Shown in pieces: positions 5,129 to 18,347 of a DNA stretch of 64,000 bases (the first letter of the stretch is position 1; every line of letters starts with the position of its first letter). The translations under genes were made by a program, and so were the position numbers. Under the pieces are notes generated by a model. That model was given only the letters and a program-made list of their open reading frames with translations. It did no database searches and was not told the DNA's origin. Source of the DNA: Salinibacterium sp. dk2585 (GTDB taxonomy: Bacteria; Actinomycetota; Actinomycetes; Actinomycetales; Microbacteriaceae); contig NZ_CP042856.1 of assembly GCF_008001035.1 (NCBI RefSeq), positions 2,480,001 to 2,544,000 on the forward strand, given 5' to 3'.

Positions 5129-6079
5129 TCAGTCGGCGAGAGACAACGCGGTTCCATCGAGGATGTCGTGCTCGCTCGTCACGACCCAGTGGAGCGGTGA
5201 TCCGGCGGCCTTCGTCTCCGCAGCGACCCTCTCCAGCACGGTCGACCAGATGGTGGCGCCCGCCGCGATCACGTCGACGCGGCCGGGGTGCACGTAGGGC
5301 AGGATGAGTCGCTCCTCCCGCGGCATGCTCGCGAGCGACCGGCAGGCCTCCAGCACGTCGTCGAGGCGCAGCCGGCTCCCGTTGACCGCGGCGGAGTCGT
5401 AGTCGCTCAGCTCCATCGCGTGCGCCGTCACGGTCGTGACGGTCCCTGCGACGCCGATGACCTCCCGCGCGGCACCGAGGTCCACGATGCTCGCCGCATC
5501 GTCGAGGGCCAGCTCGACATCGCGGCGCACCGCAGCCAGCTCCTCGGCCGTGGGCGGATCGGAGCGGATGTCTCGTTCCGTGAGCCGCACGCTCCCGACA
5601 TCCATCGAGTGCGCCGCCTCCGGCACGGTCTCGCCAAGCACCAGTTCGGTCGACCCACCGCCGATGTCGACGACGAGTCGGCGGGAGCGCTTGGCCGCGG
5701 CATCCGGAATCGCACTCAGCGCCCCGCGGAACGACAGCCGCGCTTCCTCGTCGCCGTCGATGACCTCAGGCTCGATGCCGAGTATCTCGCGCACACTGTC
5801 GAGAAACAAGTCGCGGTTCGCGGCGTCGCGGGTGGCAGATGTCGCGACGAACCGCATCCGCTCGACCCGGTGCTTGCGGCACAGCTCGGCGTACTGCTGG
5901 GTCACCGCGAGGGTGCGCGCGAGGGCGGTCTCGTCGAAGCGCCCCGTGCGGTCGACACCCTGGCCGAGACGCACGATCTCGAGCGAGCGCACGATGTCGT
6001 GCAGGCGGCCGTGCTTGATGTCGGCGATGAGGAGACGCAGCGAGTTGGTGCCGCAGTCGAACGCGGCGACGCGGGTCAC
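5129..6079 (-). CDS. ppx: Ppx/GppA family exopolyphosphatase
   Basis: A 316-residue phosphatase of the Ppx/GppA family, which cleaves terminal phosphate from polyphosphate or pppGpp. The ASKHA-fold phosphate motifs are visible: FDCGTNSLRL at residues 8-17 and VVDIGGGSTELVLG at about 139-152. The length fits the short actinobacterial form, which lacks the HD domain of E. coli Ppx. The start is a GTG at 6079 preceded by AGGAG. Its GTGA overlaps the stop of a nine-codon leader frame (6076-6105), suggesting translational coupling. Polyphosphate or pppGpp as the substrate cannot be decided here. Confidence 0.9.
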   Translation of the reverse strand: MTRVAAFDCGTNSLRLLIADIKHGRLHDIVRSLEIVRLGQGVDRTGRFDETALARTLAVTQQYAELCRKHRVERMRFVATSATRDAANRDLFLDSVREILGIEPEVIDGDEEARLSFRGALSAIPDAAAKRSRRLVVDIGGGSTELVLGETVPEAAHSMDVGSVRLTERDIRSDPPTAEELAAVRRDVELALDDAASIVDLGAAREVIGVAGTVTTVTAHAMELSDYDSAAVNGSRLRLDDVLEACRSLASMPREERLILPYVHPGRVDVIAAGATIWSTVLERVAAETKAAGSPLHWVVTSEHDILDGTALSLAD

Positions 6080-6105
6080 AGGGCGCTCCTGACGGTGGTG
6101 CTCAT
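6076..6105 (-). CDS. nine-codon leader peptide coupled to ppx
   Basis: The frame encodes MSTTVRSAL and ends in TGA that overlaps the GTG start of ppx. Its own ATG overlaps the TGA of the upstream dehydrogenase/esterase gene. A TAGGAT hexamer ends seven bases before the ATG, so a transcript starting there would begin at this ATG. The ppx ribosome site (AGGAG) lies inside the mini-frame. Either this is a leaderless mini-ORF that feeds ribosomes to ppx, or the overlaps are chance. Confidence 0.35.
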   Translation of the reverse strand: MSTTVRSAL

Positions 6106-8288: not shown

Positions 8289-8504
8289 CGCTTGTCCCCT
8301 CGCTCGGTGGTCAGGCTACTCCGGCACCGGACGCTGCAGCAGGTGTTTGCCAGCGAACGCCCACTTGCGAGGAGCCGTGCCGCTCAGCCCCGGATATCGC
8401 GCAGACGCACCGACGAATACGAAGGCGCGGCCTCCGTAGTTCGGGATGGTCGGGATCGTCTCTGCGTCACTTTCCGTGATGGCAAGTCATTATGGCACCG
8501 CGAC

Positions 8505-9227
8505 TCAGAGGAGGGAACGAAGGTACACAGCATCGCGCTCATACTCCTCCGACTCATCCAGCAGGTGCGGCTTGCCAAGCTCCGCCGCCTTCTCCCGCGA
8601 GAACTCAGCAAGGTCGTGGAGTCGGATGACCGCAACCCGCAACACATCAGCCCATGTGGCATCCGTGCCGTAGGCATCGAGAATCGTTTGCACCCGTCGG
8701 GGCGCCTCATCCATGCCCGGCGCACCCTCGGGAGTCTCGGCAGTGAGGGGCACCGCCCGAGTGGCGAAGTACGCGATATCCCAGAGCCTCGGCCCCGGGG
8801 AACACATGTCAAAGTCGATGGCGCCGACGATCGCGCCGTCACGGAACGCCAGGTTGTGGGGCGAGAAGTCGTTGTGGCAGATGACCTCCGCGGGAACCTT
8901 GGCCGGGGACTGCCACACGGCCTCATCGAGTGCGAACCCGATGCTCGCGTCGTGCAGCTGGCGCAGCAGCCGGCCGCCCTGCGAGAGCACCGACTCATCC
9001 CACACCCACTCGGGCAGCGGATAGACCGGCACAGTGCCGTCGATGAAGCTGAGACGCTCGCGGTCTCCCTCGATGCCGAGCGGGCGCGGCGCCCAGTCGA
9101 CCCCTGCGATGGCGAGGTGGTCGAGGTACCGGTGCACCGTGGGCGTCCACGGTCCGGCCTGGCGCAGCACGGTATCGCCCTCGCGCGTGACGTTGTTCAT
9201 GTTGCCGCCAACCAGCATGCCGTCCAT
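8505..9227 (-). CDS. aminoglycoside phosphotransferase-like kinase
   Basis: A 240-residue kinase-like protein of the phosphotransferase enzyme family (APH/choline kinase fold). The catalytic loop HNDFSPHN (about residues 115-122) and the metal-binding IDFD (about 137-140) are both present. The N-terminal nucleotide-binding part is short. Members phosphorylate small molecules such as aminoglycosides, homoserine or choline; the substrate here is unknown and resistance should not be assumed. A TAGCCT hexamer ends six bases before the ATG, so the mRNA is probably leaderless. The 216 bases between this gene and the dehydrogenase/esterase (8289-8504) show no gene. Confidence 0.82.
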   Translation of the reverse strand: MDGMLVGGNMNNVTREGDTVLRQAGPWTPTVHRYLDHLAIAGVDWAPRPLGIEGDRERLSFIDGTVPVYPLPEWVWDESVLSQGGRLLRQLHDASIGFALDEAVWQSPAKVPAEVICHNDFSPHNLAFRDGAIVGAIDFDMCSPGPRLWDIAYFATRAVPLTAETPEGAPGMDEAPRRVQTILDAYGTDATWADVLRVAVIRLHDLAEFSREKAAELGKPHLLDESEEYERDAVYLRSLL

Positions 9228-9244
9228 GCGGTCAGGCTAGCGGC

Positions 9245-10075
9245 TCAGCGCAGGTAGGCATCCACCATCAGCGGCCCACGGATGTCGCGGAGCCGCTCGA
9301 TCAGGCGGTCGATGCCCTTGCCCGTCACCGACGACATCTGCAGGTCGAAGGGACCGATCGGCTGCAGCTTGCCGGTGCGGATGCGCACCACTTCCCAGCC
9401 CGCCGAGCGGAGGGCCCGGTCCTTGCGGCGGTCGGCCTGCTCCTTCTTGCCGACATGCTCCAGGCCGTGCCGACCGGTGCTGTCGTACTCGATCGCGATG
9501 CGGAGTTCCGGCAGCAGGATGTCGGGCCACACCTCCGTGTGCTGGAAGAAGGGACGGGCGACCTTGACCGCGTTGAATTCATCCGTCAGGTCGAGACGTT
9601 CGAAGAGATCGGCGCGTAGCTGCGCCTCGACCGAGGAGGCCGGTTTGGGCGCGCACTGGCTGAGGAAAGCCTCCCCCGTTGGCAGCTGCGGCGTCTTCAG
9701 GCAGATCGACGGCGCGGGCTTTCGCGGCTTCGCGCGGCTCGCGACCGGCACACCGGCCTGCACGGGGCGAGGTTTCGCCATCGCGAGGCATTCGGGGCAC
9801 CACACCGAGCGGCGCCGCTCACGGCCTGGACGTTCGCGTTGCTCGGTCGGGGTCGCGACAAAGTAGTGACCGATCTCGCACTGCCACGTGAGATAGACAT
9901 CGGCGGCGGGCGGAACCTGCGTCAGCGTGATGCCGGCGTTGAACTCGGGGTGGTACTGCCGCACGAGCACGGGATAGTGGGCCCAGGCCTCGCGGTAGGT
10001 TCCGACCGGGTAGGGCACCTCGCTTCCCCGTGAGAACTGGCGGCGCGCCCACCAGTCCTCGATCCTCTCCGGCAT
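9245..10075 (-). CDS. zinc-ribbon protein with a PD-(D/E)XK-like nuclease C-terminus
   Basis: The N-terminal half (about residues 20-100) carries a treble-clef/zinc-ribbon pattern: WQCEIGHYF followed by WCPECL, as in DUF4379-type domains. The C-terminal half (about 150-276) has DILLPELRIAIEYDS followed by DRKDRALRSAGWEVVRIR-type spacing, the Asp ... Glu-X-Asp core and Arg-rich strand of Vsr/DUF559-like endonucleases. A nucleic-acid cleavage role is inferred and the target is unknown. The ATG at 10075 has a TACCGT hexamer seven bases upstream (leaderless); an in-frame ATG at 10105 is an alternative. It lies directly behind the signal-peptidase gene. Confidence 0.72.
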   Translation of the reverse strand: MPERIEDWWARRQFSRGSEVPYPVGTYREAWAHYPVLVRQYHPEFNAGITLTQVPPAADVYLTWQCEIGHYFVATPTEQRERPGRERRRSVWCPECLAMAKPRPVQAGVPVASRAKPRKPAPSICLKTPQLPTGEAFLSQCAPKPASSVEAQLRADLFERLDLTDEFNAVKVARPFFQHTEVWPDILLPELRIAIEYDSTGRHGLEHVGKKEQADRRKDRALRSAGWEVVRIRTGKLQPIGPFDLQMSSVTGKGIDRLIERLRDIRGPLMVDAYLR

Positions 10076-10111
10076 GGCGGCAACGGTAGTCGCTACCACC
10101 GACATCGCCAG

Positions 10112-10642
10112 TCAGCGGCGCTGCATCGCTCGCGGGGATGGAGTTGCAGCCGGCGTGCGGCGGGCACCCTCAGCCACCGGAGAGCTGGAGGTCGTCGCAG
10201 GTTGCCGCCGCGGAGCAAACAGGGCGGCGACGATGACCGCGCCGAGCACGAGCCGGGCGGGCACCGACGTGGCCGCGGTGAGCCACTGCGCCGCGGCGCC
10301 GCCGACATGCGCGAGCGGGATGCCGTAGACGTCGTCCTCCATGATCCACCCCGGGTCGGGCGCGGCGTTGGCGTCACCCTTGAGACGCGCCTCCCCTTGA
10401 CCGGCCTCGACAACCCGGTGCGCGTACACGGTGGGGGGCTCCCCCACGAACACGATGTTGCCGACCTCGAGGTCATCACCCGTGGGTGCCCCGATGACGA
10501 CGACGTCGCCATACCGGTAGGTGGGTTCCATCGAGCCGCCATCGATCATCATGAGCGAAACACCGGCGCCTAGGTGGAGCAATGCGGGCGCCGCGAGCAG
10601 CGTGGCCGCAACACCGGCGACGGTCCAGCGCAGCATGCGCAT
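10112..10642 (-). CDS. SipW-type signal peptidase I
   Basis: A 176-residue membrane protease of the archaeal/ER-like (SipW) type. After an N-terminal membrane helix it has the serine nucleophile in GGSMEPTY (Ser37) and a histidine in YAHRV (His75) in place of the usual lysine, followed by LKGDANAAPD as in SipW. A second hydrophobic segment lies near residues 118-140, with a basic, Pro/Ser-rich tail. The ATG shares a base with the TGA of the RCC1 gene (TGATG), so translation is coupled. SipW enzymes process a special signal-peptide class; three upstream genes in this operon encode such proteins, so it is very likely their dedicated peptidase. Confidence 0.88.
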   Translation of the reverse strand: MRMLRWTVAGVAATLLAAPALLHLGAGVSLMMIDGGSMEPTYRYGDVVVIGAPTGDDLEVGNIVFVGEPPTVYAHRVVEAGQGEARLKGDANAAPDPGWIMEDDVYGIPLAHVGGAAAQWLTAATSVPARLVLGAVIVAALFAPRRQPATTSSSPVAEGARRTPAATPSPRAMQRR

Positions 10643-12234
10643 CACTGTAGCGGCGCGGTGACACCCGTCGCCGCGGGCGCCACCCACCCGCGCTTCGTGT
10701 AACCGACTGAGTAGGTCACCGATACACCTGCGCCAGGCGCGCAGCGGGTGCCGCCGGATGCGACGACCCACGCCGTCTGGCAATTCGCTCCCTTGAAGAG
10801 GTCGGCAACGACGCTCGTGGCAGGTGTGGACTGCTGCCACGTCGCGAGGCCGTCACCGATCTGTCCGGCGTTACCCTGTCCCCAGCATCGGGCGGTGCCA
10901 GACACCTGCACGGCGCACGTGTGATACCAGCCCGACTCCATCGTCGCGACCGAGGCGAGCACTGCGCTGCCCGGGGAGTTCGTCTGGGTCGTGGTGCCCT
11001 TCCCGGTCTGGCCGTAATCGGCGCTGCCCCAGCAGTAGGCCGAGGCGGATGCGATGGCGCAGGTGTGGTAGTTGCCCGCCGTGATCCGCGTGACGTTCGT
11101 GAGGCTCGGCACTCGGGTCGGCACTCGTTTGTTGGTGGTGTCACCGTTGCCGAGCTGGCCGTTGTAGGCCTCTCCCCAGCAGTACGCGTTGCCACCGGCG
11201 ACGGCACAGGTGTGCTGCGTGCCGACATCCATCTGGGTGACGCCGCTGATGCTCGGCACTTGCACAGCGGCGAGCGACTCGTTCCCCGGCACCTCCACCC
11301 CGAGCTTGCCCGAGGTACCGTGCCTGCCCCAGCAGTAGAGGGCACCCGTCGACGCGAGCGCACAGCCATGCTCGGTAGCGACTGACACGGCGGTGATCGT
11401 GAGATTCCCCAGCCCTGCGACGGCGGCGGGGGTCGCTTGCGTCCACGGGTAGACGGGGGCGACACCGAGTCCAAGCTTTGGCCCCTGAGTGTTACCCCAG
11501 CAGTACGCCTTACCGCTCGCGACGGCGCATGTCGCGCTGTACCCCGCGCTGACCGACGTCACGGTGCCAGCGAGGCCGGTCACCTTGACGGCACTGTTGG
11601 CGGCGTTCCCCGTCTCGCCATTGCCGAGCTGGCCATACTGGTTGTCGCCCCAGCAGAAGAGTTCCCCGCCGGCCACGGCACAGGCGTGGTTCTGCCCTGC
11701 GGCGATGTCGGTCACGGGCGACGCCGAGATGCCGGCCACCCGCACGGGCCGATCGATGCCCATGGGGTAGAGCTCCCCGTTACCCGGACGGAGGCTTCCC
11801 CAGCAATACGCGGCGCCAGCAGCGATTGCGCAACTCAGGCTCGACCCTGCCCCGACCTTGGTGACGGGCTGCTGCGTCAGCGTCGCCTCCACCGTCAGAT
11901 CGTCAGTGAACCCTTGGTGCCCGGCCGCCCCCGCTGGGCCGATCGTCGGGGTGATCGTCGTCGTGACTCCGGCGACCGTGCGCGTCGCGGTGTAGTTGGG
12001 CGCGACATCCGGTCGGAGCGTCGGGGTCGCCCAGCTGACGGTCGCCGTGCCTGAAGCGTTCCGGTACGCCGTCACGCTCGTCGGCGCACCGAGGGACGCC
12101 GTGGCGATCGACTGCGGTGTCGTGACCGCTGCGGTGTCGGTGAATGATGCACCCGCGAGACTGACGCCGGACGGCAGCAGCACAGCGGCAGCGAGCACGG
12201 CAACGATCGCGAGCCCTGGGCCCTTGCGCCTCAT
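10642..12234 (-). CDS. secreted RCC1-repeat protein with SipW-type signal peptide
   Basis: A 530-residue exported protein. The N-terminus has RRK, a hydrophobic stretch and SLAGASFTDTA, the SipW-dependent signal-peptide pattern. After a fibronectin-like segment (about 45-120) come seven RCC1 repeats, each marked by C-(A/S)-hydrophobic ... YCWG ... GQLGNG (about residues 125-500). These should fold into a beta-propeller with a conserved Cys pair per blade. In bacteria RCC1 proteins are usually secreted or cell-surface proteins with binding roles. The ATG overlaps the stop of the upstream gene (ATGA). No sorting signal or C-terminal membrane anchor is visible. Ligand unknown. Confidence 0.85.
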   Translation of the reverse strand: MRRKGPGLAIVAVLAAAVLLPSGVSLAGASFTDTAAVTTPQSIATASLGAPTSVTAYRNASGTATVSWATPTLRPDVAPNYTATRTVAGVTTTITPTIGPAGAAGHQGFTDDLTVEATLTQQPVTKVGAGSSLSCAIAAGAAYCWGSLRPGNGELYPMGIDRPVRVAGISASPVTDIAAGQNHACAVAGGELFCWGDNQYGQLGNGETGNAANSAVKVTGLAGTVTSVSAGYSATCAVASGKAYCWGNTQGPKLGLGVAPVYPWTQATPAAVAGLGNLTITAVSVATEHGCALASTGALYCWGRHGTSGKLGVEVPGNESLAAVQVPSISGVTQMDVGTQHTCAVAGGNAYCWGEAYNGQLGNGDTTNKRVPTRVPSLTNVTRITAGNYHTCAIASASAYCWGSADYGQTGKGTTTQTNSPGSAVLASVATMESGWYHTCAVQVSGTARCWGQGNAGQIGDGLATWQQSTPATSVVADLFKGANCQTAWVVASGGTRCAPGAGVSVTYSVGYTKRGWVAPAATGVTAPLQ

Positions 12235-12821
12235 CGCTGCACCGCCGTCACTACGAGCGACACGGGCGTTCCGCTTGCCTGCACCCCGTTGCCCACGGTC
12301 TCGGGGAGGGTGAGGAACAACTCCGCCGTCACCGTCTCCCCCGCACCCAGCACGACCTCGTCAGCCTGCCCGCCGAGCTCCACCTCGGCGGTGAATGCCT
12401 GGGCGAGCGTGGATGCGGCATCCAGGCGTGCTTCGGCACTCACCTCGATGCTCCGGCTGAAGGTGTTGGTCACGACCGCGCTGATAGCGGCGACACGGTC
12501 ACCGGGGAGGATGTTCGCGGTGCTTGCGTCGAGCACGATGTCGCCCACTTCGATGACGGTGCATCCGTCGGTATAGCTCACCCCACCCGTGGCCGCTTGC
12601 ACTGGCCCTTCGTTGCCCGGGAGCGCCACCAAGACGACCGTGAGCGCGAGGGCTGCCACAGTAATGCGGCCGGTCCGGCGCCGAAGCAGCAGGACTACAC
12701 CACCAGTCAGCAGCAACGCGACCGCGAGGAACACGAGCGGCGCTACGCCGCCCCCGGTTGCGGGAAGCGCAGCGACCGTGGCCTGGCACACCGGTGGTGC
12801 CGCAGGGAGAGGAATGGGCAT
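12231..12821 (-). CDS. camelysin/TasA-like exported protein with N-terminal LPATG segment
   Basis: A 196-residue product with an odd order of parts. Residues 18-50 read as a textbook sortase signal (LPATG, hydrophobic helix, RRR), normally found at a C-terminus. Next come a second hydrophobic segment (about 53-75, signal-peptide-like) and a beta-rich domain with SYTDG and NILPGD. The upstream TasA-like protein has a matching NFLPGD segment, so this looks like a paralogue. The ATG at 12821 follows the upstream stop by seven bases. The same frame stays open back to 12932 under the end of the upstream gene, so the sorting signal may have belonged to that gene before a frame change. Confidence 0.7.
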   Translation of the reverse strand: MPIPLPAAPPVCQATVAALPATGGGVAPLVFLAVALLLTGGVVLLLRRRTGRITVAALALTVVLVALPGNEGPVQAATGGVSYTDGCTVIEVGDIVLDASTANILPGDRVAAISAVVTNTFSRSIEVSAEARLDAASTLAQAFTAEVELGGQADEVVLGAGETVTAELFLTLPETVGNGVQASGTPVSLVVTAVQR

Positions 12822-12828
12822 CTGAGCC

Positions 12829-13446
12829 TCAGCGCGTCGCCCAGCCAGCAGTCGGCACTGGCGTGTTGCGAACCTGGATGGCATCGAACTGGGCGGTGAA
12901 GGCCGCATTCTTGCCCTGGAGTACATCGTCAACCGTGCCGGGCAACGTCACCGTAATGGTGACGTCGACGGCGTCGCCTGCAGCGAGCGCGACAGCCGAC
13001 TGCAGGTAGCCGTCCTGCCATGCGGCGAGCGTCTGGGTCGCGGAAGGACCACCCGCGACGGCGACCGTGACCTGGAGCGCGTCCGCGAGGACGTCGTCGC
13101 CGCCCGCCTCGCGCGGCAGCGAGACGCCGTAGTACACCGACTCTGAGCCCGTGTTCGAGAGCGTAAGGGTGGTCGCGGTGCTGTCACCCGGCAGGAAGTT
13201 CGTCGCGGTGATCCGCTGCGATGTCGCCTTCGTCGCTGCGCCGATCTCGACGGTCGCGGTGGCCACGCTCTGGTTGGTGACGGTGGCCTGGGATGTGAAG
13301 TAGGCGCCCGCCATCCCAAAGCCACCGCCGAGGGCGAGGGCACCGGCTGAGATCACGACAACAGTTCGGATGCCTCCGCGCCGTACCGTCCTGTTTGTGT
13401 GCGCTGTCGCTTCGGGTGCGCCATCGCGTACAGGGGTAGCGTCCAT
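12829..13446 (-). CDS. TasA/camelysin-like secreted protein with SipW-type signal peptide
   Basis: First gene of the four-gene operon, 205 residues from the ATG at 13446. A charged N-terminus (about 30 residues) precedes a hydrophobic helix ending in [17 protein letters not shown], the alternate signal peptide cut by SipW. The rest is beta-rich with [16 protein letters not shown], as in TasA/camelysin proteins, which form extracellular fibres or act as surface proteins. In Bacillus, TasA and SipW share an operon and build biofilm fibres; a similar role here is inference. The 129 bases between this start and the divergent LuxR-type gene must hold the promoters for both. Confidence 0.8.
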
Positions 13447-13575
13447 CGTGTCGAGTCCTGTTCTGTGAGTCGGATGCATCGCCCTCCCGCGACGCAGCGT
13501 TCAGTTTGGCTTCGACGGATCTGCGAGAATCGCGTATATCGCACCTGGTTTTGTGCGCGGGGTGGAGGCAGCGAG

Positions 13576-15942
13576 ATGGCAACGTGGCGTAGGGTCAGGG
13601 TCCCGCTCCGCCCAGCCAGCGTGAATCGCTACACCGAACTTGCGCGTCGCGAGCGTCGCTCGATGTTCTTCGTCGGCGCCCCTGGGGCGGGCGCTTCACA
13701 ACTCGCGGGGAACATCGCGACGCAATTGCGTCTCTCCAACATCCCGGTCGCCCGATTCGACGATGCTGATCGCGCGCGGCGGATACCGCCGGTTCCATCG
13801 GACGCCGTTGTTCTCGCATCGGGCCGCGCCGGTGCGCCGCTCGACCCTGACGTGCAGCGCTTCCTCCAACAGCACACCGAGACAGTGCCGGTTTCGGCCC
13901 TCACCCGCGCCGAGCTTGAGCGCGTCGTTTCGCTGGCCTTGTCGAGCCCGCCGTCGTCGCGGCTGCTCGAAGCCCTCTGGCGCGCGTCCCACGGCAACCT
14001 GGCTGCTGCGCATACGGCCTACGAGGAGTTCGATCGCCAAGGCTGGATCACCAGCTCGCACGGGCACATGCACTTGAGCGTTCCCGTGCGAGATGCAGTC
14101 GACGCCATCGCCGTCGACACCTCCAGATGGGTGCCTTCCGACAGCGAGCACGTGCTGGTGACGCTCGCCCTGGAACCGCGGGCGCGGCTCGATGACCTCG
14201 AACGCGCGCACGAACCCGCCGCCGTACAGGGCGCCTTGGCGCGGGGGGTGCTGGCGCGGCACGGCGACGCGCTGTCATTGCATCCGCCCCTCCTCGCCGC
14301 CCCGCTACGTCGCCGTGCCGCGTCCACTGTGCGCGCTGACACCTTCGGGACGCTTGCCGATGCCCCCGGCGCGATCACCCGCCTTCCCGCGGTGGCGCTG
14401 TGGGCGTTGGGCCGGAAAGGGGATGTGGCCGCCGCCGCGAGTGCCGCAAAGGTCGCCTTCGCCGCACACGATTACACCACCGGCCTCGCACTCAGCGACA
14501 CCGCCCTCTCGCACCATTGCGATCAGGCAACCCGCATAGCGCTTCTGCTGTTGCGCGCGCAGTGCCTCCGAATGCTCGAACGGCTAAGCGAGGCCAACAC
14601 GAGCCTGAAGGAGGCGGCCGCGCTTGCCTACGCAACCCCAATAGTGAGCACCGAGTCCTTTGCACTCGCGCTTGACCTCGTTGCGACGCGGGCCGACCTG
14701 CTCCACTACCGCGACCGCTCCCCCGACGCGGCGCTACGCGTCATTGATGAAGCCAGCTCGCTCCTCGGCGAAGCGGCGGAACCCACCCTCGGGGCACTCT
14801 CGGTGCTCCATCTCGCGTATGCGGGACGCTTCCGCGACGCCCTCATGGAACACGCCCGCCTCGGGGATGCCGCGCCTGGAGCGCTCGCGCGCCGCATCGA
14901 AGCCATGCGCATCCTGGCCCTCGACGCGACCGGGAGCTCCGACGAAGCTGCCGTACTCCTCGGCCGACTCGACCGACAGGCGACAAGCACCGACGCCGGA
15001 GAGTGGGCCTCGGAGGAGCATTTGGGTGCGCGGTTCTCGGTGATGCTCCACGGACGCGGCGTGGCGGCGCTCGCCGCCGAGACGAATCGCTTCGCAGCTG
15101 CGGACACCGACGGCCGGATGCGCATCGATCACGGGATCCGTCGCCTGGCCGACGCTGAGATCGCGGTCAATACTGGCGATCTCGTGGCCGCTCTTGCCGC
15201 CGCGAGCGACGCGGTGAACACGATCGAACGTGATGGCCCCGAGGACTACCTGCCGCGAGCGCTGTCGCTTCGGGCGCTCGCGCTCGCGGGCACGGGCGAG
15301 TCGGTTGCGGCGCTCCGCGAACTGGTGCGGGCGAGGGCGCTCCCCGGCTTCGCCAATTCCCCTGTCGGCCCTGAGACCCGCGCGGCGATTGCCGGCACCT
15401 TCTCCCTGTCGGGCGACCACGAGTCGGCGATTTCGGAGTGCCGCGCACTCGTCGATGACGGGCTCCACGGTGTCGCCGTTCGCGCGGGAGTATTCGGAGT
15501 TCTTGAACGCCACGAGGAAACATGCCGTCTGCTGCTCGAACTCGAAGCGAGCGGCGACGTGGCAGCGCTCGTCCGGTCGCTCGCGAGCGTCACGCTCGCT
15601 CCGGGCGTTCGAGACGCCATGCGGGTCAGCAGGCAGGCGAGTGCGCTTGGCCAGTTCGCCATTGCGCACGCCGCCGCCCGTCTCGCGCAGGAACTGTGCG
15701 AACCCGGCTCTGCCCTGCACTCGACGGCCGGCAGGCTCGTCGCCGCAGCATCCGCCCACATCACCGGTAAGGCTGCCACCCCCGGCCGGGGCAGCCTCAC
15801 CCGACGAGAGTCGCAGGTTTCCCAGCTCATGAGCGAGGGGCTCAGTAACGCCGAGATCGCCGAGCGCCTCCATCTGTCGAAGCGCACCGTCGAGGGGCAC
15901 ATCAACCGCATCTACGCGAAAACCGCGGGTGCATCGGCTTAG
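13576..15942 (+). CDS. large LuxR-family transcriptional regulator with degenerate P-loop
   Basis: A 788-residue regulator with an N-terminal NTPase-like region, a long helical repeat region (about 200-720) and a C-terminal LuxR/GerE helix-turn-helix: [18 protein letters not shown] and SKRTVEGHI (about 735-785). The architecture is that of LAL/MalT-type regulators. The P-loop reads GAPGAGAS (residues 34-41): the invariant lysine is replaced by alanine, so ATP binding may be lost. The ATG at 13576 has GGAGG seven bases upstream, which decides it over an in-frame ATG far upstream at 13399. Its divergent position makes the SipW/TasA operon the obvious target; this is inferred. Confidence 0.88.
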
Positions 15943-15955
15943 GTCGCCTTGGCGG

Positions 15956-15976
15956 GGGCCCGGAGCGCTCGGGCCC
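15956..15976 (+). terminator. GC-rich hairpin after the LuxR-type gene
   Basis: GGGCCCG and CGGGCCC arms, separated by seven bases, follow the regulator stop codon by 14 bases. There is no T-run, so termination at this site would be weak or would need other factors. Confidence 0.4.
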
Positions 15977-16046
15977 AGCGCCAAGCCGGAGTAGTATATG
16001 GGCGAATCGCCGTTTCGAGCGATCGGGGGAACACAGGGGAACTCAC

Positions 16047-18140
16047 ATGCGCCGCAGCTTCGGAGCCGCCACCGTCACGCTCACTCTCGTACTGGCACTG
16101 GGCTGGCCCACGGCTGCTATCGCGGCGCCGTCTCCGGCAACCATCACGATCTCCGACACGGCGCTCAAGATCGGGGATACCGCGACGGTCACCATCAGCT
16201 TCTCCAGTGCAGTGCTCGGGTTGGCTGCGGACGACTTCACGGTCGACAACGCGGAGCTTACTGACGTCGACTCGCCGAATGGCGGCATCACATGGACGGC
16301 GACTCTCACGCCCGACGTGAACGTGACCTCGTTGACAAACGTGCTCACGCTCGACTACGCCGGAATCACCGACTCGGCTGGCGTCCCTGGCACCGGCACG
16401 GTCGACTCCCCCAACTACTGGGTCGACACGGTGCGGCCGTCCCTCGCCTCGCCCATTGGCATCTCAGACACGGCGCTCAAGATCGGGGATACCGCGACGG
16501 TCACGTTCCAGTTCGCCGAGCCGGTGCTGGGATTCACCTCTGCCGACGTCACGACCCCCAACGCAAGCCTCTCGAACCTCAGCTCCTCCGACGGCGGCGT
16601 CACCTGGACCGCAACACTGACCCCCGCAGGCGCCGTGACCTACGCCACGAGCGTGCTCACGCTCAACTACGTCGGAATCACGGACCTCGCGAGGAACGCT
16701 GGCATCGGAACCGCAGACTCCGGCAACTACGCGATAGACACGGTCCGACCCAGCCTGGCCACAGCGATCACCATCTCCGACACCACCCTCACCCCGGGCG
16801 CGACAGCGACCGTCACGTTCATATTCACAGAGAGTGTCACCGGCTTCGACGTGGGAGACGTCACCGCCCCCAACGCAAGCCTCTCGGACCTCAGCTCCTC
16901 CGACGGCGGCAGCACCTGGACCGCAACACTGACCCCCGCACGCAGCGTGAGCGACGCCACGAACGTGCTCATCCTCGACTACACCGGCCTCATGGACCTC
17001 GCGGGCAACGCCGGCACCGGCTCGGTGAGCTCCGGCAATTACATCGTGAACACCGGCACGCCAACCGCCACGATCTCGATTCTTCCCACGACCTATGGCA
17101 TCGGCGACAGCGCGATCGTCACTATTACGTTCAGCGAAGCGGTCGTTGGATTCACTGTCGAAGACCTCACCGCACCCAGCGGCACCCTCAGCGCACTCCG
17201 CACCGCGGATAACATCACCTGGACAGCCACGTTCACCCCGGCCCCCGACACGGAGCTTGCGAACGCGGCGATCACCCTCGAGTTGACTGGCGTCGCCAGC
17301 TCCGCGGGCAACGCCGGCGTCGGCACGGCGACATCAGGCGCATATGCCGTCGATACGATCCGGCCTGAGTTGACCTCGGTCAGCGTCTCCGACACGGAGC
17401 TCGGGATTGGGGATGTCGCGCTGGTCACGTTCACGTTCTCGGAGGCCGTCTCGGGCTTCGTCCTTGGCGACGTCACGGCCGAGCACGCAACGGTGGGCAA
17501 CCTCTCTGGCAGCGGCTCTTCCTACACCGCGCAGCTCACGCCGAATCCCGGAACCACCGATTCGGGAACCGTCACGGTTGCCCTCGCAGGAATCACGGAT
17601 GCCGCAGGCAACACGAGCACCGGAACCCCAATGTCCGCGCTCTATAGCGTCGACACCGTCCGGCCCACCGCTACGGTGACGGTCGCGGATTCTGAGATCG
17701 GCGTGGGCGAGACATCCGTTGTCACGATCACCTTCTCGGAGCAGGTCACAGGGTTCTCGGCCAGCGACTTCACGGCTCCCGGCGGCACAATCAGCGCCCT
17801 CGCGTCTGCCGACGGCGGACGCACGTGGACCGCCACGTTCACGCCGAGCGCCAACGTGGCCGCTCCCGCCAGCACGGTCACGGTAGACCTCGCCGGTGTC
17901 GCCGACGCGGTAGGCAACGCCGGCGTTGGCACGGCTGTATCGGCTGCCTTCGCGATCGACACCGTCGTCTCGACACCCACGCCAACTCCCACGCCTACTC
18001 CGGCTCCCACGCCCACGCCCGCGGCCGCCGAAGCGCTTCCCGTCACCGGAAGCACACCGGCCGGGGCACTGCTGGCCGGCAGCATGCTGGCCGCCGCAGG
18101 AATCGCCCTCCTCGCGCTGCGCCGCCGCGCCCGCGCATAG
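16047..18140 (+). CDS. LPXTG-anchored surface adhesin with six Ig-like repeats
   Basis: A 697-residue cell-wall protein. It has a signal peptide (residues 1-27, ending IAA) and six repeats of about 104 residues. Each repeat opens with ISDT-like and IGDTATVTF-like strands and carries a (G/N)ITWTATLTP-like segment, and each boundary is marked by (V/I)DTVRP. A Pro/Thr spacer and a C-terminal sorting signal follow: LPVTG, hydrophobic helix, RRRARA. The repeats resemble bacterial Ig-like domains of adhesins. A sortase, not in this window, should link it to the wall. It lies downstream of the LuxR-type gene on the same strand (104-base gap). Repeats 1-3 are almost identical at DNA level in places. 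Confidence 0.88.
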   Translation: MRRSFGAATVTLTLVLALGWPTAAIAAPSPATITISDTALKIGDTATVTISFSSAVLGLAADDFTVDNAELTDVDSPNGGITWTATLTPDVNVTSLTNVLTLDYAGITDSAGVPGTGTVDSPNYWVDTVRPSLASPIGISDTALKIGDTATVTFQFAEPVLGFTSADVTTPNASLSNLSSSDGGVTWTATLTPAGAVTYATSVLTLNYVGITDLARNAGIGTADSGNYAIDTVRPSLATAITISDTTLTPGATATVTFIFTESVTGFDVGDVTAPNASLSDLSSSDGGSTWTATLTPARSVSDATNVLILDYTGLMDLAGNAGTGSVSSGNYIVNTGTPTATISILPTTYGIGDSAIVTITFSEAVVGFTVEDLTAPSGTLSALRTADNITWTATFTPAPDTELANAAITLELTGVASSAGNAGVGTATSGAYAVDTIRPELTSVSVSDTELGIGDVALVTFTFSEAVSGFVLGDVTAEHATVGNLSGSGSSYTAQLTPNPGTTDSGTVTVALAGITDAAGNTSTGTPMSALYSVDTVRPTATVTVADSEIGVGETSVVTITFSEQVTGFSASDFTAPGGTISALASADGGRTWTATFTPSANVAAPASTVTVDLAGVADAVGNAGVGTAVSAAFAIDTVVSTPTPTPTPTPAPTPTPAAAEALPVTGSTPAGALLAGSMLAAAGIALLALRRRARA
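16155..16955 (+). repeat. 312-bp-period direct repeats inside the adhesin gene
   Basis: A 38-base stretch at 16155-16192 recurs without change at 16467-16504, and an approximately 75-base stretch starting at 16555 recurs at 16867 with very few changes. Both pairs are exactly 312 bases (104 codons) apart. This points to recent duplication or gene conversion of whole domains, and the repeats could expand or contract by recombination. Confidence 0.8.
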
Positions 18141-18191
18141 GGTTCGCTTCGCAGCCCTCCGGGATCCCCCAGCGCTGGAAGACCGCCCGCA

Positions 18192-18213
18192 GCGCGCCCT
18201 GGGCTGGGCGCGC
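18192..18213. terminator. hairpin between adhesin gene and tRNA-Arg
   Basis: A perfect 8-bp inverted repeat (GCGCGCCC / GGGCGCGC) with a six-base loop lies between the plus-strand adhesin and the minus-strand tRNA. It could stop transcription from either side, though no T-run follows. Confidence 0.45.
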
Positions 18214-18272
18214 CAGAACTCCTTCGCCACCTCGGTGCGCTTGACGAGCGCGTCGAAGCGTGGAATGCGGTG

Positions 18273-18347
18273 TGGTGCCCCTGGAGGGACTCGAACCCCC
18301 AACCTGCTCCTTAGGACGGAGTTGCTCTTCCATTGAGCTACAGAGGC
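18273..18347 (-). tRNA. tRNA-Arg (anticodon CCU)
   Basis: The minus strand folds as a tRNA. The acceptor arms are GCCTCTG and CAGGGGC, with a D arm starting AGCTCAATGG. The anticodon loop GTCCTAA gives CCU, which reads the arginine codon AGG. The T arm contains GGTTCGAGTCC. The 3' CCA is encoded (18275-18273). AGG is a rare codon in such high-GC genomes. Confidence 0.95.

Follow-up and report, generated by a model that had tools for sequence, protein, structure and literature searches.

What does an RCC1 propeller protein do in an operon that also encodes a SipW-type signal peptidase and a TasA-like protein? The question is raised by a locus of Salinibacterium sp. dk2585, which we analysed within a stretch of 64,000 nucleotides (nt; positions 2480001-2544000 of a complete 2.84-Mb genome in one contig, NZ_CP042856.1), hereafter the window. 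Coordinates given without an L number are those of the window; L numbers denote DNA stretches around loci and G numbers denote compared genomes. Our data make it somewhat probable that the locus is an accessory SipW/TasA-type matrix-fibre operon, in which the RCC1 propeller protein replaces the usual fibre partner, acting as a TapA-like strand donor or as a head, and in which a membrane protein, g2, serves as the base. Fibre formation and cleavage are what we infer from the computational analysis described below.

Products of the operon

On the minus strand, the tasA-like gene (12829..13446) is followed after a 7-nt gap by g2 (12231..12821), which overlaps rcc1 (10642..12234) by 4 nt; rcc1 overlaps sipW (10112..10645) by 1-4 nt, as the sipW start may be GTG 10645 or ATG 10642. 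Reading frames and spacing agree with a preliminary description of this DNA, made from the sequence alone, in which four minus-strand genes were tightly joined. The sipW product (177 amino acids, aa) is a signal peptidase of the endoplasmic reticulum/archaeal type (TIGR02228, 54.2 bits for a cut-off of 51.85), and it stays below the cut-off of the bacterial-type model TIGR02227 (18.2 of 47) and far below that of the Bacillus SipW equivalog NF046067 (27.4 of 190). Ser38, His76 and Asp91 do not vary across the nine rows of our SipW alignment A1, the window included; we take the Ser-His pair, in place of the bacterial Ser-Lys, to be catalytic. The SipW-type peptidase with a Ser-His dyad announced in the preliminary description is thus borne out.

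The tasA-like product (205 aa) consists of a putative SipW-type signal peptide, whose last residues are AYFT, and a TasA-like domain. A profile built from a nine-row alignment of TasA-like proteins (A6) matched PDB structures of TasA over the mature domain, namely 5of1 (E 5.8e-5) and the fibre form 8aur (E 6.8e-5), the next PDB match having an E value of 0.31. Single TasA-like proteins are mostly under the curated cut-offs, so that the relation to TasA is a statement about the set. The signal-peptide model TIGR04088 matches four of the nine A6 members, the window member not included; the AYFT pattern and the shared N-terminal hidden Markov model (HMM) are present.

The rcc1 product (530 aa) combines a SipW-type signal peptide and a TasA-like mature N-terminus with an RCC1 propeller held in a putative split FN3-like domain. 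Its signal peptide (residues 1-29, 12148..12234, minus strand), followed by SFT, was recognized at E 8.6e-6 by an N-terminal HMM built from the signal peptide and the start of the mature chain of the nine TasA-like proteins and run on the 683 called proteins of the loci. Besides the rows it was built from, this HMM listed further SipW-locus proteins, most of them small and exported, together with nine RCC1 proteins scoring E 2e-4 or better. Beyond the AxFT motif, the mature N-terminus of the RCC1 protein in the window matched the donor segments of TasA-like proteins better than 998 of 1000 shuffled sequences, and the best match was with the TasA-like protein of its own operon.

The RCC1 repeats exceed the cut-offs of PF25390 (192.8 bits, cut-off 150) and PF00415 (147.5 of 21.7), and structure prediction indicates that they form a seven-bladed propeller. 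In an AlphaFold2 model based on a 19-row alignment, residues 122-461 (10852..11871, minus strand) have predicted local distance difference test (pLDDT) values mostly above 70, with a dip at 150-158, and Foldseek matched them to UVR8 (E 5.1e-33), HERC and RCC1 structures; AlphaFold2 run on the protein without an alignment gave no usable model (pLDDT 32). The RCC1 propeller and the SipW-class signal peptide previously described were thus recovered by PF25390 and by the N-terminal HMM, respectively. A search of genome contigs with the RCC1 protein returned four distant RCC1 proteins; on viral contigs, the patterns used detected no relative of either the RCC1 protein or the SipW of the window.

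The propeller seems to be inserted into a split fibronectin-like domain, whose halves would lie at about residues 48-118 (11881..12093) and 480-530 (10645..10797, model confidence <50), both on the minus strand and delimited with alignment A8. The 19-row model includes no confident FN3-like part, and the split domain consequently rests on sequence only. When the two halves of the RCC1 proteins were joined, the FN3-like family PF16656 was matched by four of 10 (best E 2.9e-8, 34.6 of 30 bits), PhoD_N by five of 10 and fn3 by two of 10 (best E 0.00099, under the cut-off), with counts taken at E up to 0.1.

The g2 product (196 aa) has an N-terminal tail with Cys12, an LPATGG motif (12750..12767, minus strand), a first transmembrane segment (TM1) followed by RRR, a second one (TM2) with a VQA site, and a TasA-related domain with Cys87. 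Residues 19-49 just pass the sorting-signal model TIGR01167 (16.0 of 15.9, E 0.014) and fall under the cut-off of NF058582 (24.7 of 27). The sorting-like motif occupies residues 19-24 of 196 and is thus N-terminal, not part of a C-terminal LPXTG-TM-positive tail. In the alignment of seven g2 copies (A4), the TG of the motif is kept in six and the exact LPXTG is found in one, that of the window; the site after TM2 looks signal-peptidase-like by eye (VQA in the window, AxA in the six other copies), and the cysteines before the motif (Cys12) and after the cleavage site (Cys87) are invariant in all seven. The preliminary description had counted two TasA/camelysin-like proteins: this holds for the tasA-like product, through the A6 profile and its matches to 5of1 and 8aur, and has to be revised for g2, a two-TM protein without a SipW-type cleavage motif.

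The A6 profile does not match the window g2 alone, and the relation appears when profiles are compared: A4 aligned with A6 (hhalign 95.6%, E 1.2e-8) and with the domain of a set of seven proteins called A5 (93.9%). The A5 proteins are C-terminal LPXTG, TasA-related proteins encoded beside actinobacterial SipW genes, and their domain is in turn related to A6 (hhalign 96.4%). They share with g2 the related domain and the stretch of sorting signal, TM and arginines; in g2, however, the sorting-signal-like part precedes the signal peptide and the domain instead of following them, as in a permuted protein. As A4 aligns with both sets, g2 looks like an A5-type protein with the sorting-signal part shifted to the front. 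Small C-terminal LPXTG proteins with a TasA-related domain also adjoin other SipW genes of the class (L114 6654-7262, L116 6247-7089, L121 6268-6942 and 10943-11590), which suggests that wall-anchored base proteins are a wider part of SipW loci. We also considered that the LPATGG part might be the C-terminus lost from tasA-like through a frameshift, and rejected this explanation: the two-TM layout is preserved within a single frame by all seven copies of the five genomes, and in L058 the order of g2 and tasA-like is swapped. The role of an LPXTG-like signal in front of a signal peptide is a question that g2 raises.

Pairing of SipW and RCC1 genes in relatives

The family sample comprised 299 genomes (199 for the single-query search with the window SipW) and the class sample 364. 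With the window SipW as sole query, matches at E 1e-8 or better were found in 24 of 199 genomes, its own included. An RCC1 gene lies beside SipW in four of the five best other genomes (G132, G051, G163 and G122, but not G158) and, among the 18 with weaker matches, in G053 alone (Fisher p 0.003). The nine-row SipW profile A1 scored above 150 bits at 14 places in eight of the 299 genomes, the next score being 101, and RCC1 genes are present within the surrounding stretch at 13 of the 14 places. Nine of these places are rows of A1, which makes the count partly circular; the five SipW places of G233 are outside the profile and all five have RCC1. In G233, which belongs to the same genus as G132, about 30 kb (L105 1263-18050 and L106 3591-6734) hold an expanded array of six RCC1, five SipW, two g2 and several TasA-like genes. 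In the class sample, no further SipW scored as high as 100 bits.

A SipW tree of 56 rows (midpoint rooting for drawing only) placed the window SipW in a group of 13 with support, and 12 of these adjoin RCC1 genes. The four loci of another supported group have RCC1 (G053) or RCC1-like (G178, G014, G225) neighbours, and the nearby G290 also has an RCC1-like one; we called RCC1-like those proteins over the cut-off of PF13540 and under that of PF25390. Our own RCC1 unit HMM misses degenerate repeats, finding none in L107, L109, L110 and L117, where Pfam finds RCC1-like proteins, and loci counted as having no RCC1 may therefore hide such proteins. Long neighbours of nine loci beyond those with strict RCC1 were submitted to Pfam: besides the four RCC1-like cases just named, those of L066, L067, L073, L080 and L083 were not RCC1-like. 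The N-terminal HMM left the RCC1-like proteins of L107, L109 and L110 unlisted and gave E 0.009 for L068 and E 0.07 for L117.

The same gene types are found together elsewhere. G122 has g2, tasA-like, rcc1 and sipW in a single-strand run (L058 3015-7985), and four-gene-type cassettes occur twice in G132 and several times in G233. G051, G163 and G053 combine SipW and RCC1 with a small exported protein and have no g2; in G051, SipW is adjoined by one of the C-terminal LPXTG proteins that make up A5. The g2 profile matched 57 of 299 family genomes at E 1e-3, with full-length matches restricted to seven copies in five genomes and the remainder being LPXTG-like stretches or domain parts; the class sample added to the window copy one partial match (G463). 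All seven full-length copies are within SipW/TasA loci, five of them being profile rows and the two of G233 independent of the profile. Small proteins of 135 and 150 aa, with C-termini alike by eye, are encoded between RCC1 and TasA-like genes at L054 9665-10072 and L106 2923-3375.

The closest association between the two kinds of protein is found in G132 and G233, where the A6 profile is matched over nearly its whole length, ahead of the propeller, by five RCC1 proteins that are not among its rows (E 2e-35 to 4e-26 among the 683 proteins; L054 1341-3515 and 3755-5860, L105 3276-5450, 5739-8210 and 8309-10432). These matches imply a TasA-like domain and a propeller in one chain, and in four of the five fused proteins the mature N-terminus is TasA-like in the shuffle test.

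Conserved SipW and RCC1 neighbourhoods, the check proposed in the preliminary description, are thus present in six further family genomes (G132, G233, G122, G051, G163 and G053). The opposite outcome, in which the genes are not kept together in relatives, holds for part of the sample: in four other genomes of the window's genus RCC1 and g2 are both absent, LuxR matches are weak and SipW scores 78-85 bits versus 205 for the window. The earlier view of SipW, a TasA-type protein and RCC1 as one system gains from their travelling together and from the fusions in two genomes; the role given to g2 does not share this support.

A putative fibre and its alternatives

According to two studies (PMC9674648, PMC10151520), each Bacillus TasA subunit passes the N-terminal strand of its mature form on to its neighbour during polymerisation. 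The first strand comes from TapA, whose first five residues are nearly identical to those of TasA and which has a complete immunoglobulin (Ig) fold. By comparison, the precursors of the TasA-like and RCC1 proteins would be cut by the SipW of the operon, as suggested by their signals, the shared operon and the recurrent pairing. The TasA-like subunit would then polymerise by donor-strand exchange as Bacillus TasA does, its mature N-terminus completing the next subunit. The RCC1 protein may give a strand, start or end the fibre and present its propeller as a binding head; we call it a strand donor and head because its plan (SipW signal, TasA-like first strand, Ig-like domain) is that of TapA. 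The Ig/FN3-like domain after its TasA-like N-terminus should be self-complete, so that, like TapA, it can give a strand and need not take one. In the two relatives with a full TasA-like domain ahead of the propeller, the RCC1 protein could itself enter the fibre. As the base, g2 may keep its TasA-related domain near the membrane, with a topology predicted from charge: N-tail outside, TM1, RRR inside, TM2, domain outside.

A more specific version, a propeller-tipped fibre, appears unlikely to us in its full detail. The RCC1 protein would start or cap the fibre as TapA does, with its propeller in a loop of the Ig/FN3 domain; the inverted sorting signal of g2 would hold the fibre, with sortase fixing only the short N-tail of g2 to the wall and the g2 domain, freed by the ordinary signal peptidase, being retained by a disulfide between Cys12 and Cys87.

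Several results weigh against a fibre operon with an RCC1 partner. SipW-like peptidases were found in 200 of the 299 family genomes versus 33 with RCC1, which means that most SipW loci are without RCC1, and G158 holds tasA-like, g2 and sipW but no RCC1. The fused proteins are known from two genomes of one genus. Taken alone, the window TasA-like protein scores 14.1 of 450 on the NCBIfam TasA model, and the A6 profile misses both the window RCC1 protein and the small exported proteins beside SipW in G051, G163 and G053. For the joined FN3 halves of the window protein itself, Pfam gives no match, and the joined A8 profile has weak PDB matches only, the best being a titin domain pair (E 0.08). 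The RCC1 proteins of L058, L106, L055 (two) and L056 are absent from the matches of the N-terminal HMM among the 683 proteins, and the RCC1 protein of G163 (L056) and one of G051 (L055) start, by eye, with an ordinary signal peptide.

In the main rival reading, the RCC1 protein is a freely secreted propeller, for instance a binding or inhibitor protein like BLIP-II, that uses SipW for export only; the TasA-like protein would form its own matrix and would not assemble with it. We regard this as possible, if rather doubtful. BLIP-II is among both the sequence and the fold matches of the RCC1 protein (1jtd, E 7.9e-11; Foldseek, 1.5e-14), and the mature N-terminus is significantly TasA-like in only two of the six unfused RCC1 proteins tested (window and L058), a result that also counts among the objections listed above. 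A protein merely exported by SipW is nevertheless harder to reconcile with the full TasA-like domains on five RCC1 proteins of G132 and G233, with the window N-terminus resembling most that of the TasA-like protein of its own operon, and with a pairing that recurs with two separate SipW groups. Quite improbable, in our judgement, is that the genes are just a cassette of surface proteins at a variable site next to tRNA-Arg, sharing export and mobility without a common structure and with an incidental order. The location of the block beside a tRNA-Arg gene, where relatives have other content or almost nothing, and the congeners devoid of RCC1 and g2 would suit such a cassette, but the same four gene types come together in G122, G132 and G233, and no full-length g2 was found away from such loci, the two copies independent of the profile included.

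The TasA-like proteins might also be camelysin-type proteases or soluble antimicrobial proteins instead of fibre subunits. The window protein has a weak match to Peptidase_M73 (camelysin; 18.8 of 22.5, E 0.0016), whose position below the cut-off is a further point against the TasA assignment of the single protein; the alignment of A6 over the mature domain with structural TasA, fibre form included, makes this last alternative very improbable.

The accessory block and known systems

The operon belongs to an accessory block (10106..18172, a feature with no strand) that also includes a LuxR-type gene and a gene for a surface protein. In G195, blastn aligned window 8458-10105 with L130 13298-14947 and window 18173-18269 with L130 14970-15065, leaving the two flanks only 22 bp apart and 10106-18172 entirely missing; flank identity is 93-94%, and 85-89% beside the tRNA. 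As the whole 8.1-kb block is missing at the same site in G195, we consider it an accessory unit, slightly larger than the extent first proposed (10112-18140), whose genes are real. G199 is also without the block. At its edge lies a tRNA-Arg (CCT) gene (18273..18347, minus strand; ARAGORN), found also in stretches from four relatives. From the 9245-10105 gene to this tRNA, G199 has about 0.2 kb and G080 about 7.1 kb without a blastn match; G143 has no match to the 9245-10105 gene, and 10.7 kb separate its tRNA from the match of window 5144-6099. The interval beside tRNA-Arg(CCT) is thus variable within the genus (window 10106-18347; L127, L128, L129, L130).

No recombinase was found among the six block proteins scanned with Pfam, and the list of direct repeats of at least 16 nt contained no att-like repeats joining the two block ends to the tRNA. 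The roughly 97 bp of window 18173-18269 match one end of a 308-aa open reading frame of G195 (L130 14966-15892); as this is all that is left of it in the window, most of that gene seems to have been lost when the block arrived or through some other event. The 286-aa gene at the other border (9245-10105) has blastn matches in G080, G199 and G195, and weak matches to a treble-clef domain (DUF4379), to a restriction endonuclease family (MTES_1575) and to Vsr; it perhaps encodes a nuclease.

The LuxR-type regulator (788 aa, 13576..15942, plus strand; GerE 49.9 bits, E 2.4e-13) is divergent from the operon and starts 129 bases from tasA-like when its start is taken at ATG 13576, the reading frame being open from 13399. 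Its size, strand and distance are as previously described; its designation as the operon's own regulator has its basis only in its position and in its being inherited with the block. Another large LuxR-type protein, which begins with a weak AAA match, is encoded directly downstream of the SipW gene with an RCC1-like neighbour in G290 (L110 4217-6766). We considered LuxR as a conserved partner and rejected it, the regulator beside that locus sharing just the helix-turn-helix part. The surface protein (697 aa, 16047..18140, plus strand) has six Big_12 repeats (PF19078, 551.6 bits over six stretches) and a C-terminal LPVTG-TM-RRR tail. The six repeats of the LPXTG adhesin noted earlier are thereby confirmed; its tail is visible and scores below the cut-offs of the anchor models (TIGR01167, 12.1 of 15.9; NF058582, 17.6 of 27). 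There is one sortase match in the window's genome. The LuxR gene and the Big_12 protein are part of the same strain-specific block, and any role of theirs in the fibre is putative.

Among the literature matches listed, work on TasA-type fibres is almost confined to Bacillus and related bacteria, where the partner is TapA or CapP; wider searches gave no system like the present one among the matches listed, and none of 5.39 million open full texts named SipW with RCC1, subscription papers being outside the scope of the search. A scan of seven proteins that admitted E values up to 1 gave no match to a TapA-named family (for the LuxR protein, among the best 25 of 29 matches). To our knowledge, no SipW operon surrounds BLIP-II, a propeller of actinobacterial origin. 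BLIP-II (1jtd, 3qhy) and the RCC1 protein are alike in being exported bacterial RCC1-type propellers, and differ in the SipW-type signal peptide, the FN3-like halves and, in relatives, the fused TasA-like domains found here. The sortase-independent TasA/CalY/CapP filament of B. cereus, as far as its abstract describes it (PMC13082335), is similar in having more than one TasA-type subunit and a modulating partner; CapP is set apart by its description as chaperone-like, a propeller being unmentioned in that abstract. A recurrent SipW/TasA/RCC1 module outside Bacillus, probably in Actinobacteria and with fused TasA-domain/propeller proteins, would suggest that a TasA-type fibre may bear a binding head, much as tip adhesins are borne by chaperone-usher pili, and it offers a test case for whether a propeller sits on a fibre. 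The nearest parallel is the tapA-sipW-tasA operon of B. subtilis, which likewise has a SipW-type peptidase gene adjoining that of a TasA-type substrate. A further exported protein there, TapA, begins with a TasA-like N-terminus and has an Ig-like domain complete in itself, and the RCC1 protein is its counterpart by analogy; the present operon differs in that the partner carries an RCC1 propeller and a two-TM, TasA-related protein is added.

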